Source: Candidatus Marinarcus aquaticus (GTDB taxonomy: Bacteria > Campylobacterota > Campylobacteria > Campylobacterales > Arcobacteraceae). From it: a stretch of DNA of 64,000 nucleotides. Of the stretch, positions 3 through 17,248 are shown piece by piece (the stretch's first letter is position 1; every line of letters begins with the position of its first letter). The stretch covers positions 248,001 to 312,000 of the forward strand of contig NZ_PDKN01000003.1 of NCBI RefSeq assembly GCF_004116335.1, written 5' to 3'. The notes under the pieces were generated by a model. It did no database searches and had not been told where the DNA came from. It saw only the letters and a program-made list of their open reading frames with translations. The translations under genes were made by a program, and so were the position numbers.

Positions 3-530
3 CCTGATATTGTGGTCAGAGATCCTTTTAATACAAAAAACGAAGGCATCAAAGAGAAAATCAAAGAGGCCAAAGACTTGGTGAATTTACTGAGTTTGAG
101 AAAATCAACGCTGTATAAAATCATCTTGATTATTGTGGAAAAACAAGTGAGTTTCTTTGTTGGGGGTGAACTTAAACCCTTTTCTATGCAAGAAATAGCT
201 GAAGAGCTTGGGTTTGCTGAGTCAACAATTTCTCGAGCAGTGGCAAATAAATATATTGAGTGCAGTTTGGGCATTTTCCCACTCAAACACTTTTTCAGTA
301 ACGCCGTTGCAAATAAGGACTTGTCTTCTTCACAAATTAAAAACTACCTCAAATCATTAGTGGAGTATGAGAGCAAAGAGGATCCACTCACTGACCAACA
401 ACTGTTAGATATGGTGGAGGAAAAGTACAGTCTGAAAATGGTACGACGTACGATTACGAAGTATCGGAAACTCTTATCAATTCCTTCATCTAAAGAGCGA
501 AAGAAACTCTACAAAGTAGAAAACTTATAA
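3..530 (+). CDS. rpoN: RNA polymerase sigma-54 factor RpoN, C-terminal part (5' end outside window)
   Basis: This is the C-terminal end of the sigma-54 factor, which directs RNA polymerase to GG/GC (-24/-12) promoters that need an activator such as NifA. The frame is already open at the window edge, so the gene is partial and its start is not visible. What is seen is the helix-turn-helix that contacts -12 (EIAEELGFAESTISRAVANK) and, near the end, the RpoN box (RRTITKYRKLL) that reads the -24 element. It lies directly upstream of nifH on the same strand. Three matching promoters are found in this window, which supports a role in nif expression. Whether it is the only rpoN copy in the genome cannot be seen here. 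Confidence 0.93.
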   Translation, partial: PDIVVRDPFNTKNEGIKEKIKEAKDLVNLLSLRKSTLYKIILIIVEKQVSFFVGGELKPFSMQEIAEELGFAESTISRAVANKYIECSLGIFPLKHFFSNAVANKDLSSSQIKNYLKSLVEYESKEDPLTDQQLLDMVEEKYSLKMVRRTITKYRKLLSIPSSKERKKLYKVENL

Positions 531-1070: not shown

Positions 1071-1086
1071 TGGAACACTAAGTGCA
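1071..1086 (+). promoter_or_regulatory. Sigma-54 promoter of nifH
   Basis: TGGAACACTAAGTGCA has GG at 1072-1073 and GC at 1084-1085 with exactly 10 bases between them, as sigma-54 promoters require. Transcription would start near 1097, giving a short leader before the Shine-Dalgarno AAGGAG and the nifH start at 1124. rpoN lies directly upstream and nifA lies in the same window. Confidence 0.85.
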
Positions 1087-1102: not shown

Positions 1103-2038
<936 letters not shown>

Positions 2039-2077
2039 TTAGATTTAAATAAAACATAAAAAAAGAAGGAGAAGAAT

Positions 2078-2437
2078 ATGTTTGTATGTGGATACCACTT
2101 CCCAGCTGATATGGGTAATGATGTAAGTTTTGATAAGGTTATTGAAAAAGTTAAAGATGGAATTGATGCGACAGGTAAAACTGTTACATTAACTTCTGAA
2201 ACAAGAGAAGGTGTTAAGTTAGAAGAGATCACAGTTGAAGAGGGTTCTTTCGCTCACACTGCATTGGTTGATTACTATGAGAACACTGAATGTGCAGAAA
2301 AAGATGGTTTCAAAATGGTTTATTATACAAATAAATACCAAATCTCAGAAATCTCTAAAAGTGTTGATGGTGGAAAAACTGCTGAATTATGTAAAAAATT
2401 AGATGATATGAATCTATACAGAGTTAAAGTAGCGTAA
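2078..2437 (+). CDS. Uncharacterised 119-residue protein between nifH and nifD
   Basis: I do not recognise this protein. It is a small, acidic, soluble protein with no signal peptide or membrane segment and three scattered cysteines (Cys4, Cys72, Cys105). The N-terminus MFVCGYHFPADMG is distinctive. It has a good Shine-Dalgarno (AAGGAG) and sits 39 bases after nifH and 30 before nifD, so it must be co-transcribed with the nitrogenase structural genes. It does not look like the PII-type NifI proteins found at this position in archaea and clostridia, nor like NifX/NafY, CowN or a 2Fe-2S Shethna protein. Its position suggests a role in nitrogenase assembly, protection or control, but this is inference only. 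Confidence 0.9.
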   Translation: MFVCGYHFPADMGNDVSFDKVIEKVKDGIDATGKTVTLTSETREGVKLEEITVEEGSFAHTALVDYYENTECAEKDGFKMVYYTNKYQISEISKSVDGGKTAELCKKLDDMNLYRVKVA

Positions 2438-2467
2438 GCTACTCTGACTTCCAAGTAAGGAGAAACT

Positions 2468-3925
2468 ATGGGACCAGAAACATTAGAGAGTCTACAAAAG
2501 CAAGCGATTGATGAAGTACTAGCAGGGTACCCAGCAAAAGCTGCAAAAAACAGAGCAAAACACTTAGGTGTTGATTCACCCGAAGGTGTTAAAGGTGCTT
2601 GTGATAAAACAAGAAGTAACAAACAAACTGTTCCAGGTGTTATGTCTCAAAGAGGTTGTGCATATGCTGGATCTAAAGGGGTTGTTTGGGGACCAATCAA
2701 AGATATGATTCATATCTCTCATGGACCAATTGGTTGTGGTCAATACTCAAGAGGAGGACGAAGAAATTACTACATCGGTACAACTGGTGTTGATACATTC
2801 GTTACAATGAACTTTTCAACTGACTTCAACGAAAAAGATATCGTATTTGGTGGAGATAAAAAACTTAAAAAAGCGCTTGAAGAGATTGATGAATTATTCC
2901 CATTAAACAATGGTATTTCAATCCAATCTGAGTGTCCAATTGGACTTATTGGGGATGATATCCAAGCCGTAGCCAAAGTACATAAAAAAGAGACGGGTCA
3001 TCAAACGATTGCTGTTTCATGTGAAGGGTTCAGAGGGGTTTCTCAATCTCTTGGTCACCACATTGCAAATGACATGATCAGAGACCACGTTATGCCTGAC
3101 ACTTCTTTTAGAAAAGATTTCGAAGGTACAGATTATGACGTTGCAATTATTGGGGATTATAACATCGGTGGAGATGCATGGTCAACAAGAATTATCCTTG
3201 AAGAGATGGGTCTTAGAGTAATTGCTCAATGGTCTGGGGATGCGACGTATAAAGAGTTAGCGATTGCTCCAAAAGCAAAACTTAACTTATTACACTGCTA
3301 CCGATCAATGAACTATATTTCACGACACATGGAACAAGAGTTCGGTATTCCTTGGATGGAGTATAACTTCTTTGGACCAAGCAAAACGACTGAGTCTATC
3401 AGAAAAATTGCTTCGTTTTTTGATGAATCTATTCAAAAAAAAGCAGAAGAAGTTATTGCTAAATATACAGCTATGACAGATGCGGTTATTGCTAAATACA
3501 GACCTTTATTAGAGGGGAAAAAAGTAATGCTTTATGTGGGTGGTTTAAGACCAAGACACGTTATTGGAGCTTACGAAGATTTAGGAATGGAAGTTATCGG
3601 TACTGGTTATGAGTTCGCTCACGGAGATGACTATAAAAGAACAAAAGAGGACATCTCTCGATCAACTCTTATTTACGATGATGCAAATGAGTACGAGTTA
3701 GAAGAGTTTGTTAAAAAACTCAGACCTGACTTAGTTGCTGCTGGTGTTAAAGAGAAATATGTATTCCAAAAAATGGGTCTTCCATTTAGACAAATGCACT
3801 CTTGGGATTACAGTGGTCCATACCATGGGTATGATGCTTTTGCTATTTTTGCAAGAGATATGGATTTAGCTATGAACTCTCCAGTTTGGGATCATACTAC
3901 AGCTCCATGGGATAAAGAAGCGTAA
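2468..3925 (+). CDS. nifD: Nitrogenase MoFe protein alpha chain NifD
   Basis: NifD forms the alpha2-beta2 MoFe protein with NifK and holds the FeMo-cofactor where N2 is reduced. P-cluster ligands are visible as Cys64 (QRGCAYAG), Cys90 ([10 protein letters not shown]) and Cys156 ([11 protein letters not shown]). The cofactor ligands are Cys277 ([11 protein letters not shown]) and His443 ([15 protein letters not shown]), matching Cys275 and His442 of Azotobacter. The length of 485 residues is normal for molybdenum NifD. It lies 11 bases before nifK with a Shine-Dalgarno in the gap. No missing key residue was seen, so this should be a working Mo-nitrogenase subunit. Confidence 0.98.
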
Positions 3926-3936
3926 GGAGAAGTAGG

Positions 3937-5484
3937 ATGCAAGACGTAGAAAACATAGTAAACGGACAAAAACTGTTCTTAAAACCTGAATATCAAGAGG
4001 TTTTACAAAGAAAAAAACAATTCGAAGGTTCAATGGGTGCTATTGATCCTAAGAAAGTGGATGAAGTTCAAGAATGGACAAAATCTTGGGAGTATCGAGA
4101 AAAAAACTTAGCAAGAGAAGCGATCACTGTAAATCCAGCGAAAGCGTGTCAACCATTAGGTGCTATTATGGTTGGTCTTGGGTTTGAAAACACAATGCCT
4201 TACGTTCATGGAAGCCACGGATGTGTTGCATACTTCAGATCATACTTCACTAGACACTTTAAAGAACCAACACCATGTGTTTCTGACTCAATGTCTGAAT
4301 CTGCAGCGGTATTTGGTGGTTTGTCAAATATGAAAGATGGTATACGAAATTGTAATGCACTTTACAAACCTGAAATGATTTCTGTTTCAACAACTTGTAT
4401 GGCAGAAGTTATCGGGGATGACTTAAATGCATTCGTTATTGGTGCAAGAGAAGAAGCAGAAGGTGAATTGGATAATACTGAAATCACTTATGCACACACT
4501 CCATCATTTGTTGGGTCACACATTACGGGTTACGACAACATGATGAAAGCAACATTGGAGCAATTAAACCCTGCTCGAAGTGAAAGAGTAGAAGATGCTG
4601 AAAGAATCAACATCATTCCTGGTTTTGAACCATATTTAGGGTCATTAAAAGAAGTTAAAAACATCGCTAAAATGTTCTCTGACAAAATTGTAATGTTAGG
4701 TGACCATGAAGAGCAATGGGATACGGGTGCTGGTGAGTATAAATTATATGCAGGTGGTACGCCATTAGCAGACGCTAAAACAGCTATCAATGCGAAAACA
4801 ACAATCTCATTACAAAAGTATTCAACAGTAGCAACAGCAAAAACGATTAAAAACAAATGGAAACAAGGTTATGAAACGTGTAATCCAATTGGTTTAAGCG
4901 GTACAGATGAATTCGTTATGAAATTATCTGAATTAACAGGTAAAGAAGTGCCTGCTGAATTAAAAACACAAAGAGCTAAACTTGTTGATGCTATGCAAGA
5001 CTCTTACCCATATATGCACGGTAAGAAATTCGCAATCTGGGGAGATCCTGACTTCTTATTAGGTCTTGTATCTTTCATCGTTGAAATGGGTGGAATCCCT
5101 ACTCACGTTCTTTGCCACAATGCGCCAAGAAAAGGTTGGGAAGATGATATGAAAGCAGTATTAGCTAAATCAAACAGAGCTGACGAGTGTAACATTTGGG
5201 CTGGTAAAGACTTATGGCACTTACGATCACTGTTATTTACTGAACCTGTAGATTTCATGATTGGTAACGTTTATGGAAAAGAGCTTTACAGAGATACTAA
5301 AATCCCATTAATCAGAATTGGTTTTCCAATTTTTGATAGACACCACTTACACAGATACTCTATGAGTGGATATGAAGGTGGAATCAACTTATTAACATGG
5401 ATTACAAACGGAATTTTAGATCAGTTAGATGAAGAAACCAAACATATTGGTGAAACTGACTACTTCTTTGACGCAGTTAGATAA
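3937..5484 (+). CDS. nifK: Nitrogenase MoFe protein beta chain NifK
   Basis: This is the beta subunit of the MoFe protein, sharing the P-cluster with NifD. The P-cluster ligands are Cys71 (AKACQPLGA), Cys96 (HGSHGCVAYFRSYFTRHF) and Cys154 (STTCMAEVIGDD). The 515 residues are typical for the group. It is the last gene of the nifH operon, since a strong terminator follows 13 bases after the stop. nifT, which usually follows nifK, is found 8.6 kb downstream. nifE, nifN and nifB are not in this window. Confidence 0.98.
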   Translation: MQDVENIVNGQKLFLKPEYQEVLQRKKQFEGSMGAIDPKKVDEVQEWTKSWEYREKNLAREAITVNPAKACQPLGAIMVGLGFENTMPYVHGSHGCVAYFRSYFTRHFKEPTPCVSDSMSESAAVFGGLSNMKDGIRNCNALYKPEMISVSTTCMAEVIGDDLNAFVIGAREEAEGELDNTEITYAHTPSFVGSHITGYDNMMKATLEQLNPARSERVEDAERINIIPGFEPYLGSLKEVKNIAKMFSDKIVMLGDHEEQWDTGAGEYKLYAGGTPLADAKTAINAKTTISLQKYSTVATAKTIKNKWKQGYETCNPIGLSGTDEFVMKLSELTGKEVPAELKTQRAKLVDAMQDSYPYMHGKKFAIWGDPDFLLGLVSFIVEMGGIPTHVLCHNAPRKGWEDDMKAVLAKSNRADECNIWAGKDLWHLRSLLFTEPVDFMIGNVYGKELYRDTKIPLIRIGFPIFDRHHLHRYSMSGYEGGINLLTWITNGILDQLDEETKHIGETDYFFDAVR

Positions 5485-12422: not shown

Positions 12423-14069
12423 ATGATATATGACGTTATCGTCGTTGGGTCAGGTATTGCTGGGCTGATGGCTGCAATTGAAGCAAAAACAGAACAGAAT
12501 AAAGTTGCGATAATCACAAAAAGCAACCTCTTTAAATCCAACTCTTCTATGGCCAGCGGGGGTATCAATGCTGTACTTGATAAAAAAAATACCAAAGAGA
12601 TTAATGCCCATATTAATGATACCTTTCAATCTTCAAAAGGGTTAGGGAATAAAAAAGCCATCAACTATATGTGTAATCGAGCCTCAACCATCATAGAAAA
12701 ACTTGAAGAGTATGGGGTAAACTTTGATAAAGATATTCAAGGCACTATTCTTCAACGTAGTTTTGGTGGAGCAAGCAGCAAACGAACCTGTTTTGTAGGA
12801 GATAAAACAGGGGGAGCCATCACCCAAGCATTGATAAAAAAAGCACGAGAGATTGGGGTAGAGTTTTTAGTGAACAATTTTGTTTTAAACTTGGCAAAGT
12901 ATAAAAACAATGTCAGTGGAGTGATTTGTCTGAGAAAATTGGACTCTTCAGTTTTAATCTATCCTGCAAAGTCTGTGGTGCTTGCAGGAGGTGGATATGC
13001 TGGGATTTTCAGAGGAAACTCAACCAATGCGCAAGACTACACAGGGGATCTACTCGCTGTTTGTTTACGAGCAGGTTTGAGTCTATCCAACATGGAATTT
13101 GTCCAGTTTCACCCAACGGGGTTTGCCAAAACCAACTATTTGGTCACAGAAGCCGCTCGCGCTGAAGGGGGATACCTTATCAACAGTGATGGGGAACGAT
13201 TTATCAATGAACTTGATACTCGAGATAAGATTGCCAAAGCGATATTAAAGCAACAACAAAAAGGGCGTAAAGTCTATATCGACCTTCGACACTTAAGCCT
13301 TGAAAAGATTCAATCACGCTTGCCAGGTCTTTATAATGCAGCAATGAATCAAGCGGGAGTGGATCTTTCATCTGAATTGCTTGAAATCAAACCCGTTGCT
13401 CACTACAGCATGGGTGGAGTAGAAACCAATATGGTCTCTACAAGCATAAAAGGTCTTTTTGTATGTGGAGAGATGGCATCAAATGGGGTACATGGTGCGA
13501 ACCGATTGGGTGGAAATTCTTTGCTAGAAGGAGTAGTATTTGGAGAACTTGCAGGTAAAAAAGCAGCCTCTCATGCTCAAGACCGTCACTATTTGCCTAT
13601 TGATTACAATATTGTCATTAAAGACATTAAAACCATTGATAAAATCTTTGATTCAGATACCTCAAAAAATTTCAACGCCATACGTATTTCTATGGGGAAT
13701 TGTCTGTTTGACAAAGTAGGCATCATACGAAACCGAAAATCGCTCATTCAAGCCTTTGATTACATCAAATATTTGCGACGGGAATCATACAGTCTGCACT
13801 GTATTAACAAAGAGCGACGCAATAATGTCGAGTTGACCTCTATTTTAGAACTGCGTAATGCCTTGGAAATTTCTGAAGCCATTATTCTTTCAGCACAAAA
13901 AAGAAAAGAGAGTCGTGGTGCACACTTTAGGGATGATTTCCCCGATATAAACAAAGAGATGAACAAACACATCTTGGTTACTGAGATTCAAAAAGGTTAC
14001 TTTAAAACTCAATTCCAAGCGTCAAAATGGATTGATTTTTTAAAACGAACATTGACCAATAAAACTTAA
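12423..14069 (+). CDS. FAD-dependent oxidoreductase, FrdA/NadB-like, in nif operon
   Basis: A 548-residue soluble flavoprotein of the fumarate reductase/succinate dehydrogenase/L-aspartate oxidase family. It has the FAD-binding VVGSGIAGLMAAIEA N-terminus, SMASGGINAVLD, HPTGF, TEAARAEGGYLINSDGERF, HYSMGGVETN and CGEMASNGVHGANRLGGN. The position of the His that binds FAD covalently in SdhA/FrdA is Ser here, as in NadB, so FAD should be bound non-covalently. The capping-domain sequence is nearer FrdA than NadB. No iron-sulfur or membrane subunit is adjacent. It lies between the aldo/keto reductase and nifT under a sigma-54 promoter; the electron donor and acceptor are unknown. Confidence 0.88.
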   Translation: MIYDVIVVGSGIAGLMAAIEAKTEQNKVAIITKSNLFKSNSSMASGGINAVLDKKNTKEINAHINDTFQSSKGLGNKKAINYMCNRASTIIEKLEEYGVNFDKDIQGTILQRSFGGASSKRTCFVGDKTGGAITQALIKKAREIGVEFLVNNFVLNLAKYKNNVSGVICLRKLDSSVLIYPAKSVVLAGGGYAGIFRGNSTNAQDYTGDLLAVCLRAGLSLSNMEFVQFHPTGFAKTNYLVTEAARAEGGYLINSDGERFINELDTRDKIAKAILKQQQKGRKVYIDLRHLSLEKIQSRLPGLYNAAMNQAGVDLSSELLEIKPVAHYSMGGVETNMVSTSIKGLFVCGEMASNGVHGANRLGGNSLLEGVVFGELAGKKAASHAQDRHYLPIDYNIVIKDIKTIDKIFDSDTSKNFNAIRISMGNCLFDKVGIIRNRKSLIQAFDYIKYLRRESYSLHCINKERRNNVELTSILELRNALEISEAIILSAQKRKESRGAHFRDDFPDINKEMNKHILVTEIQKGYFKTQFQASKWIDFLKRTLTNKT

Positions 14070-14087
14070 TTTAAACAAGGAGAAACA

Positions 14088-14297
14088 ATGGCAAAAGTAA
14101 TGTTAAGAGAGAACGATGGTGTTCTTTATTTTTATGTAGCAAAAAAAGATATGGAAGAGACAATTGAGTCTTTAGAGTTTGATACACCAGAAAACTGGGG
14201 TGGAGAAGTGGAACTTTCAAATGGTGAGACATGGTGGATTCAACCCGGATCAAAACAACTGCCAAAAGAGGAAGTTTGTAAAAAGATTTCTGATTAA
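14088..14297 (+). CDS. nifT: Nitrogen fixation protein NifT/FixU
   Basis: A small protein of 69 residues found almost only in nif clusters; its function is not established and it is dispensable in the species tested. The family pattern is clear: MAKVMLRENDGVLYFYVAKKDMEE at the start, then WGGEVELSNGETWWIQP. It normally follows nifK; here it ends the operon of the aldo/keto reductase and flavoprotein, 18 bases after the latter, with a good Shine-Dalgarno (AAGGAG). Confidence 0.93.
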   Translation: MAKVMLRENDGVLYFYVAKKDMEETIESLEFDTPENWGGEVELSNGETWWIQPGSKQLPKEEVCKKISD

Positions 14298-14322
14298 AAT
14301 GAATATTTTTTATACAATATTG

Positions 14323-14353
14323 TTGACTAATTTTGTTGATTTTGTATTATAAT
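14323..14353 (+). promoter_or_regulatory. Sigma-70 promoter of nifA
   Basis: TTGACT (14323-14328) is followed after 16 bases by TATTAT (14345-14350), overlapping TATAAT (14348-14353). It gives nifA a promoter that does not need sigma-54, so the activator can be made first. It lies in the 81-base gap after nifT. Confidence 0.7.
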
Positions 14354-14378
14354 AGTTTTTTAGCCATAAGGAGAAGAG

Positions 14379-15926
14379 ATGCCATTAATGGATAAAGCAG
14401 CATGTCAGACCTGTTTAACAACTAAAGAATTAACTACACTGTACGAAATAGCTTCAATTATTTCAAACCACTATAATTTAGACACATCATTAGAAAAATG
14501 TATCAAAGTTTTAAAAAATACTCTGAATTTAGAGAATTGTGTGGTTCATATCTTAGAGGATGATGAACTCAAAGTATTTGCGTCCGTTGAATTAAGTAAA
14601 ATCCAACGAGACTTAGCAACGTATAAAATTGGGGAAGGGGTAACGGGAATGGCGGCCCAAGAGAAAGAACCCATCGTTGTGGAAAATATTCATAGTGACA
14701 CCCTATTTCTAAACAAATCAGGAAAACGAGATTTTAACGGACAATCGTATGTGGCCGTGCCTTTGGTGGTTGATACTAAAACCATTGGAGTATTGGGTGC
14801 AAGTCTGACAAAAACAACTGAGATTGGCTTTGAAGATACCGTAAGGATCTTAACCATTGTCAGTTCTATTTTTGCGCAAACCATTTATTCATATCAAATG
14901 AATAAAAAAGAGAAAGAACGACTCAAAGAGTTGAAACTGTATTATAAAATGGAGTGGGATTCAAAAGTGCATAACTTTGGAGATATAATAGGGGACAGTC
15001 CAAAAATGCAGCAAGTTTTCCAAGTAATTCAACGAATTGCTCAAAGCGATGTCACCGTACTTGTAAGAGGAGAAACCGGGACAGGGAAAGAGTTGGTAGC
15101 AGCTGCCATTCACAAACGAAGTAAAAGAAAAGATGAACCATTTATTAAACTCAATTGTGCAGCTATTACTGATACGCTATTGGAAAGTGAACTGTTTGGA
15201 CACGAAAAAGGTGCGTTTACCGACGCTAAAGAGACCAGAAAAGGAAGATTTGAACTCGCTGACGGAGGAACTCTTTTCTTAGATGAGATTGGAGATATTT
15301 CTGCTTCTGCGCAAGTGAAATTGTTGCGGGTTTTACAAGAGCGAGAGTTCGAACGTGTCGGTGGGAGTAAAACCATCAAGGTCAATGTTCGATTGATTGC
15401 AGCAACCAATCGAAACTTAGAAAAAATGGTTGAAGATGGTGATTTCAGAGAGGATTTATACTATCGTTTAAATGTTATTCCAATTGATTTACCGCCGTTA
15501 AGAGAGCGTGGGGATGACATTAAACAACTGGTAAACTTCTTCTTAGAACGTGCCATTAAGAATCATAAAAAAAGAGTAACCATCACTGAAGAAGCGATGG
15601 ATGCGTTGTGTCAATATCCATGGCCAGGAAACGTTCGAGAGTTGGAAAATACGCTGGAGAGAATCGTACTTATGGGGAATGAAGATGGTATCAGTGAAAG
15701 CGACATGAGACTGCTTTTACCTGCATTGCATGACACACAAGCAACCAAAGCATCGAAAAAAAGCAACACTTCAAATAACTTGGCATCAAAGACATTAGAA
15801 GAGTTGGAGAAAGATGCGATTGAAAACGCGTTGGATAACAACAACAACAATCAATCACATGCAGCTAAAGAGTTGGGAATCTCTTTAAGACAAATAGGGT
15901 ACAAAATTAAAAAATATGGCATCTAA
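14379..15926 (+). CDS. nifA: Nif-specific transcriptional activator NifA
   Basis: A sigma-54 enhancer-binding protein that activates nif promoters. Domains: an N-terminal GAF domain (about residues 20-165), a sigma-54-contacting AAA+ domain (about 200-430) with Walker A GETGTGKE (about 231) and Walker B GGTLFLDEIGD, and a C-terminal helix-turn-helix (HAAKELGISLRQIGYKIKKY, about 494-513). The sigma-54 contact loop reads GAFTDA (about 278-283) instead of GAFTGA. The linker before the helix-turn-helix has no cysteines, so it lacks the oxygen-sensing motif of rhizobial NifA; a Cys-x2-Cys pair sits at the N-terminus (AACQTC). No nifL is adjacent. It has its own sigma-70 promoter and overlaps the next gene by 11 bases. 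Confidence 0.95.
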   Translation: MPLMDKAACQTCLTTKELTTLYEIASIISNHYNLDTSLEKCIKVLKNTLNLENCVVHILEDDELKVFASVELSKIQRDLATYKIGEGVTGMAAQEKEPIVVENIHSDTLFLNKSGKRDFNGQSYVAVPLVVDTKTIGVLGASLTKTTEIGFEDTVRILTIVSSIFAQTIYSYQMNKKEKERLKELKLYYKMEWDSKVHNFGDIIGDSPKMQQVFQVIQRIAQSDVTVLVRGETGTGKELVAAAIHKRSKRKDEPFIKLNCAAITDTLLESELFGHEKGAFTDAKETRKGRFELADGGTLFLDEIGDISASAQVKLLRVLQEREFERVGGSKTIKVNVRLIAATNRNLEKMVEDGDFREDLYYRLNVIPIDLPPLRERGDDIKQLVNFFLERAIKNHKKRVTITEEAMDALCQYPWPGNVRELENTLERIVLMGNEDGISESDMRLLLPALHDTQATKASKKSNTSNNLASKTLEELEKDAIENALDNNNNNQSHAAKELGISLRQIGYKIKKYGI

Positions 15927-16440
15927 CATCACATACAACAACGAAACTTTTGAGCTCATTGATGAATTCATCGATATTGGTTACATGGCTGAAGACATTG
16001 AAGCACACGATGATAAAGGCAATGTACTCATCATTCAAAAAGCAAGCCCTAATAGAAGCATTCAAATCATTATGTCGTTTCCAAATTTCGAGGATTTTAA
16101 AGAGGAGATTATTGCATTTGATACCTTTATGAACGATGCTCAAGTGGAAATTTTCACCTACATTTTGTTTGATTCACCTCTTGAAATTAAGCACACTTTC
16201 AAAAAATTGATTGTGGCATATGACCGCAATGAAGACTATGGGAACATGTATGGAACAAAAATTGTAAGTGGCTCTTTAGAAAACAGATTAACAAAAGCGC
16301 TTTTCTTAATTGGGAAAGATGGCGCTATCTATCATATCGATATGCCTCAAAACTTACACAACAGCTTTGATATGGAACGTATCCGAGTCGAGTTAAACAA
16401 GGTGTACCAATCTTATACAGGAGTTGGTTGTCATGGATGA
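15916..16440 (+). CDS. Peroxiredoxin-like protein without catalytic cysteine
   Basis: A 174-residue cytoplasmic protein whose second half resembles thiol peroxidases and AhpC/TSA proteins (DYGNMYGTKI, then ENRLTKALFLIGKDGAIYHID). The position of the peroxidatic cysteine (after the strand IQIIMSFPNFEDFK) has no cysteine; the only Cys is in the tail (GVGCHG). If the fold assignment is right, it cannot act as an ordinary peroxidase and may bind a partner instead. It overlaps nifA by 11 bases and the SIR2-like gene by 8, so it belongs to the nifA-clpX block. The family call is moderate. Confidence 0.75.
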   Translation: MASNITYNNETFELIDEFIDIGYMAEDIEAHDDKGNVLIIQKASPNRSIQIIMSFPNFEDFKEEIIAFDTFMNDAQVEIFTYILFDSPLEIKHTFKKLIVAYDRNEDYGNMYGTKIVSGSLENRLTKALFLIGKDGAIYHIDMPQNLHNSFDMERIRVELNKVYQSYTGVGCHG

Positions 16441-17248
16441 AGTATTACAGAAGATTAAAGACGGTACTTGTATTCCTTTTTTAGGAATGGGAGTTTTTAC
16501 AAACACAAAAGCGACAGATGGCACACAAATTCCATTTGACAGTGACTCAATGATTTTGGCTTTAAACAATGGCCGAGCGATGAGTGAACGACTCATGTAT
16601 GAGTACTCACGTGCTGCCATGAGTTTAGAACAAAGAAAAGGTCGAGAGTTTATTATTCAAATGACCAATCACATCTTCTCTTCAAAAGAGTATGAACTGC
16701 CAGCGGTTTATCAATGGTTAAAAGAGTTTAAACCTCCTTACGTTATTGATACCACTATGGATGACTCTTTACAAAAAGTATATGAAGAAGATGTTCACTG
16801 TTTAATTACGGGAATTTCAAGAATTACTGCAGATTATGACCGATTTATTATCTATAAGTTTGACCCTTCAAGTAAAGAGTATACAAAAATAGAGAAAGAG
16901 GCTTTAAAAACAGATGCCCCAATTTTGTTTAAACCTATGGGATCAACCAAGCCTGAGATGAATTTCATTGTTTCAGATGCAGACTTTGTGGATTGGCTTA
17001 CTGAAGCCATGGGTGGATATGCCATGCCAAACATCTTAAAAGAGTATCGAAAAGATAAAGAGTATATTTTTATGGGCGTGGATTTCTCCCGCGATACATT
17101 TAGAATGGTGGCAAATGAGATTACCATTGGCTTAAAAGGTGGCTACAGCTTAATCAATAAAGATGAATTAACTAAAAAAGAGGATAAATTCATTACGACA
17201 CATAATATCACGAATATTAAACAAGACGTCGATGAATTTATAAAATAA
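16433..17248 (+). CDS. SIR2-like domain protein of the nif cluster
   Basis: A 271-residue soluble protein. The N-terminus (IKDGTCIPFLGMGVFTN) resembles the nucleotide-binding start of SIR2-like domains (typically '..G..v.flGaG.s'), and the rest is consistent with a SIR2-like family of unknown activity. No zinc-binding cysteines of classical sirtuins are seen. The start is the ATG at 16433 with AGGAG 9 bases upstream; the TTG at 16424 directly abuts that ribosome site and is unlikely. It is coupled to the peroxiredoxin-like gene and lies 1 base before clpX. A role in nitrogenase control through NAD is speculation. Confidence 0.75.
   Translation: MDEVLQKIKDGTCIPFLGMGVFTNTKATDGTQIPFDSDSMILALNNGRAMSERLMYEYSRAAMSLEQRKGREFIIQMTNHIFSSKEYELPAVYQWLKEFKPPYVIDTTMDDSLQKVYEEDVHCLITGISRITADYDRFIIYKFDPSSKEYTKIEKEALKTDAPILFKPMGSTKPEMNFIVSDADFVDWLTEAMGGYAMPNILKEYRKDKEYIFMGVDFSRDTFRMVANEITIGLKGGYSLINKDELTKKEDKFITTHNITNIKQDVDEFIK

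Follow-up and report, generated by a model that had tools for sequence, protein, structure and literature searches.

The gene of interest, which we call X, lies between nifH and nifD in the window, the whole stretch of 64,000 nucleotides from Candidatus Marinarcus aquaticus that was analysed (Table 1). The preliminary description had pointed to a good ribosome-binding site and to tight spacing on both sides of the gene. Both are readily recognized: an AAGGAGA motif precedes the start codon, and X is separated by 39 bp from the nifH stop and by 30 bp from the nifD start. This spacing suggests that nifH, X and nifDK are co-transcribed. The promoter-like site upstream of nifH has the pattern TGGAAC-N5-GTGCA, and the C-terminal part of rpoN is found just upstream of it. 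Downstream of nifHXDK, the window contains genes of the Mop-domain, modA, modB, modC and modD types, as well as a sigma-54 activator with GAF domains that is probably nifA. The segment following the latter gene (15916-17248) encodes two proteins, one of 174 residues whose tail is weakly redoxin-like and one of 274 residues that is SIR2-like.

Table 1. Features of the nitrogenase locus in the window, and two P-II genes from genomes carrying X
Feature	Position	Strand	Basis
rpoN, C-terminal part	12-530		
Sigma-54-type promoter-like site before nifH, TGGAACACTAAGTGCA	1071-1086	+	consensus match only
nifH (Fe protein)	1124-2038	+	ORF call
Ribosome binding site of X, AAGGAGA	2066-2072	+	sequence
X, gene for a 119-aa protein of no known family	2078-2437	+	ORF, ATG start
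Ribosome binding site of nifD, AAGGAGA	2457-2463	+	sequence
nifD (MoFe protein alpha)	2468-3925	+	ORF call
nifK (MoFe protein beta)	3937-5484	+	ORF call
Sigma-54 activator with GAF domains, probably nifA	14379-15926		
NifI-like P-II, example in locus L131	2257-2655	+	
NifI-like P-II, example in locus L133	2149-2550	-	

X is a real gene. Conserved homologues, purifying selection and a codon choice of the nifHDK type together rule against a chance open reading frame. In 64/64 distinct loci the homologues are full-length, with a conserved start and a Shine-Dalgarno-like motif ahead of it. The dN/dS ratios of X range from 0.04 to 0.37, as against 0.01 to 0.12 for NifH and NifD. X is under purifying selection; however, its ratio clearly exceeds those of NifH and NifD in most compared pairs, which makes it less constrained than a core subunit. 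When codon choice is scored for its leaning towards that of nifHDK, X obtains +0.17 per codon; the same score averages -0.22 in 27 other genes of the window, the highest of which reaches -0.06. Random synonymous draws of X yield -0.23 +/- 0.075, and X lies 5.4 s.d. from this background expectation. Such a bias argues for high expression of X, probably in amounts comparable to nitrogenase, as the preliminary description had anticipated from the position of the gene.

The association of X with nitrogenase is nearly complete. In a profile search of 397 Campylobacterota genomes, X was found in 73/397 and a NifK-like protein in 74/397, with both present in 72. All three mismatches are accounted for, two by contig ends and one by a different nitrogenase lineage. 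In genome G436 the contig stops a short way upstream of nifD; the contig of G297 ends inside nifD, and the nifH-X-nifD arrangement is present. The third genome, G073, carries a divergent nitrogenase (NifK 35%, NifH 60% identical) whose nifH-nifD slot lacks X and holds two P-II (NifI-type) genes, with PF00543 matches of 4e-22 and 2e-17. X adjoins nifD in every locus examined and nifH wherever the contig extends that far, and this order, kept across these loci, bears out the earlier view of X as an integral part of the nitrogenase structural operon. In some loci (L003, L006, L012, L024) the nifH-X and X-nifD gaps measure 60-330 bp and contain strong hairpin repeats, with the order maintained. 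One genome (G090, locus L066) has both a nif and an anf cluster, and X is found solely in nif. There, anfD/G/K occupy 13190-16607 and all that is left of anfH is an N-terminal remnant (about 16699-16773, minus strand) beside nifHXDK; the nif Fe protein may serve both nitrogenases, or the locus may be decaying.

Within Campylobacterota, then, both the profile search and the inspection of loci place homologues of X exclusively in nif operons. For occurrence beyond the phylum, a search for exact 8-residue patterns from the query protein across 84,980 species genomes returned 36 loci; those in records named by taxon were all from Campylobacterota, and one record was labelled just "bacterium". The close relatives among these loci mark the genome of the window as an Arcobacteraceae-like one. 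Searching plasmid records by tblastn with two members of the family gave nothing meaningful, and a scan of viral contigs revealed no relative. The gene is likely restricted to Campylobacterota, the search outside the phylum having covered exact query patterns, plasmids and viral contigs.

X is also inherited with nif inside the phylum, in the manner of an accessory protein of the nitrogenase operon. Over 64 loci, distances between X sequences correlate with those of NifH and NifD at r=0.92 (0.915), a value reached in 0/2000 shuffles. Comparison with the housekeeping protein DapD in 13 genomes indicates that it is the nitrogenase genes that X tracks, and not the background of the genome: controlling for DapD, X and NifD have a partial correlation of 0.72, against 0.15 for X and DapD when NifD is controlled for. 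The genus designated g35 harbors two nif lineages, whose NifK shares about 85-87% and about 72-74% identity with that of the query; in every case the lineage of X agrees with that of NifK. Decay is shared as well. In genome G289 (locus L092), where nitrogen fixation has apparently been lost recently, nifH, nifD and nifK are frameshifted and X is damaged too.

The protein resembles no family known to us from databases. Pfam and NCBIfam scans of X and its members gave no family match, and a sequence search of the PDB found no relative, so that the clear homology to a family unrelated to nitrogen fixation that would have spoken against the preliminary description did not appear. Scattered Pfam and NCBIfam matches (best E 0.0045) differ between members and were rejected; PDB sequence matches to MarR, thioredoxin and other proteins had E values at or above 0.09 and were attributed to chance. 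No paper on X was found in the open literature, and the nif gene list published for a nif-bearing relative does not include it (PMC4674564). Two stretches of X are nearly invariant, an N-terminal motif, MFxxGxHFPAxxGN, and a second one at residues 83-97, YTN[KR]YQ[IM][SA]E[IL]SKxxD. The better AlphaFold model (pLDDT 89, pTM 0.83) shows a small alpha/beta fold made of a helix at 18-28, strands at 36-41 and 47-53, a helix at 58-69 and a strand at 78-81, followed by helices at 83-96 and 98-108 and a strand at 113-118. We propose that X folds into one soluble alpha/beta domain, with a mass of about 13 kDa.

Co-occurrence and co-inheritance with nif, the codon bias shared with nifHDK and the joint decay all point to X as a dedicated partner of nitrogenase. 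What kind of partner is more conjectural. The reading that we favor, to which we would give a little less than an even chance, is that X is an accessory of Mo-nitrogenase that binds NifH and/or NifDK and modulates or protects the complex. X would be produced alongside NifH and NifDK in comparable amounts, would use its two near-invariant motifs to attach to the Fe protein, the MoFe protein or both and, once bound, would modulate or shield the NifH-NifDK complex; in doing so it would fill the slot that holds the NifI1/NifI2 regulators in other lineages. This slot, together with the many conserved polar residues of X, is the reason for preferring a modulating or protective role. Physical binding, the component bound, the effect and the stoichiometry are all matters that we infer.

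The main rival is a chaperone for assembly or stability, acting on immature NifH or apo-NifDK (in cluster insertion or folding) and having no action on the mature enzyme. The evidence from co-occurrence, codon usage and linkage fits such a role equally well, and the purpose of the conserved motifs could equally well be chaperoning or the binding of a ligand. Small soluble nif chaperones of the NifM, NafY, NifW and NifZ type are common, which favors the idea; on the other hand, maturation genes seldom sit between nifH and nifD. Furthermore, inspection of one nif cluster (L133) identified NifW-like and NifZ-like proteins in addition to X, which is thus no simple substitute for either. All considered, we regard the chaperone as rather unlikely.

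One could also envision X as a constitutive third subunit of Mo-nitrogenase, bound to NifDK during turnover in the way of AnfG/VnfG. Like X, AnfG/VnfG is a small protein from a nitrogenase structural operon, and both the operon position and the codon bias of X match those of structural genes. However, X shows neither a sequence match (family models, PDB) nor a fold match to the delta subunits and evolves faster than the structural subunits. Moreover, in the genome with both clusters the AnfG-like protein has its own gene in anf, while X is retained in nif. A third-subunit role therefore appears improbable.

Another idea stems from the predicted fold. Foldseek comparison of the better model with the PDB placed a DapD structure first (3r5d; probability 1.00, E=0.0027, TM 0.43), with Campylobacter DapD (2rij) at E=0.047; the high-probability matches were DapD structures only (E=0.0027 to 0.047, TM 0.42-0.44). 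The distal N-terminal subdomain of DapD (THDPS_N, PF14790) is of similar make-up, with helices flanking an antiparallel sheet of four strands (PMC3281039). X might accordingly have originated from this subdomain, of the Pseudomonas/Campylobacter type, and have been recruited to nif as an enzyme domain or a sensor of small molecules. The likeness is weak, however, and sequence similarity is undetectable. No DapD match attains a TM of 0.5 or an E below 0.001; hhalign of the X profile against 20 DapD sequences found no similarity (P=0.41), and PF14790, used as a search model, picked out the genuine DapD in each genome and registered nothing at the X locus. Unrelated small phage proteins fit the model about equally (TM 0.46), so the fold is not distinctive; this and the negative profile comparison argue against membership in the DapD family, and we take the resemblance to reflect a small fold that is shared or has arisen by convergence. 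With the DapD subdomain lying, in addition, outside the active site, a DapD origin of X is very doubtful.

Few enzymes have been studied as much as nitrogenase. Nonetheless, essentially every sampled Mo-nitrogenase operon of Campylobacterota has a conserved extra gene with enzyme-like codons and no known relative, which probably encodes a dedicated and so far unstudied nitrogenase partner. If X is needed, it would have to be part of any transfer or reconstruction of Campylobacterota nitrogenases. Should it act as a switch or a shield, it would represent a new route of nitrogenase control or protection in microaerophilic, globally common chemolithotrophs.

The closest parallel in gene order is offered by NifI1/NifI2, which occupy the same nifH-nifD slot and are similar in size to X; in Bacteroidetes, two glnB-like genes were reported there (PMC4356463). 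In contrast to this gene pair, X is a single gene and has no P-II match: the P-II model PF00543 matched none of 44 members, and no P-II structure was among the best 50 matches listed in the fold search. The family-model scans thus agree with the preliminary description, which had seen no resemblance between X and NifI1/NifI2 or further known small nif proteins. It is tempting to speculate that X represents the first member of a class of regulators or protectors unrelated to known ones, an obligatory partner of Campylobacterota Mo-nitrogenase that replaces NifI and DraT/DraG control; this stronger proposal is possible, and we make it with considerable reserve. Five genomes carrying X (L131-L135) also have a single NifI-like P-II of about 130 aa near other nif genes, divergent from a NifU-like gene in four loci and within a nif accessory cluster in one, which argues against X being a strict replacement for P-II control. 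A search of 16 genomes gave no DraT, a weak result given that no positive control responded.

The FeSII (Shethna) protein would have a protective role in common with X, if the hypothetical one suggested here is correct, but X lacks its conserved cysteine set. In 44 members, cysteine is present at position 4 in 31/44, at position 72 in 7/44 and at position 105 in 42/44, and the four conserved ligand cysteines of a [2Fe-2S] protein of the FeSII type are missing; identity with the latter was rejected. In the absence of a conserved metal-ligand set, a bound FeS cluster, or redox protection based on one, is unlikely. Identity with CowN was considered on account of a resemblance by eye in the C-terminal half of X and was likewise rejected, as the profile comparisons yielded P values of 0.35 and 0.48 and the CowN model PF20543 detected separate CowN genes with no match at the X locus. 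CowN, which confers protection against CO and binds nitrogenase directly (PMC8047169), is nevertheless another small protein dedicated to nitrogenase, and the genome of the window has a true CowN gene on a different contig (L107, G000:C4:2199-2498), distinct from X.
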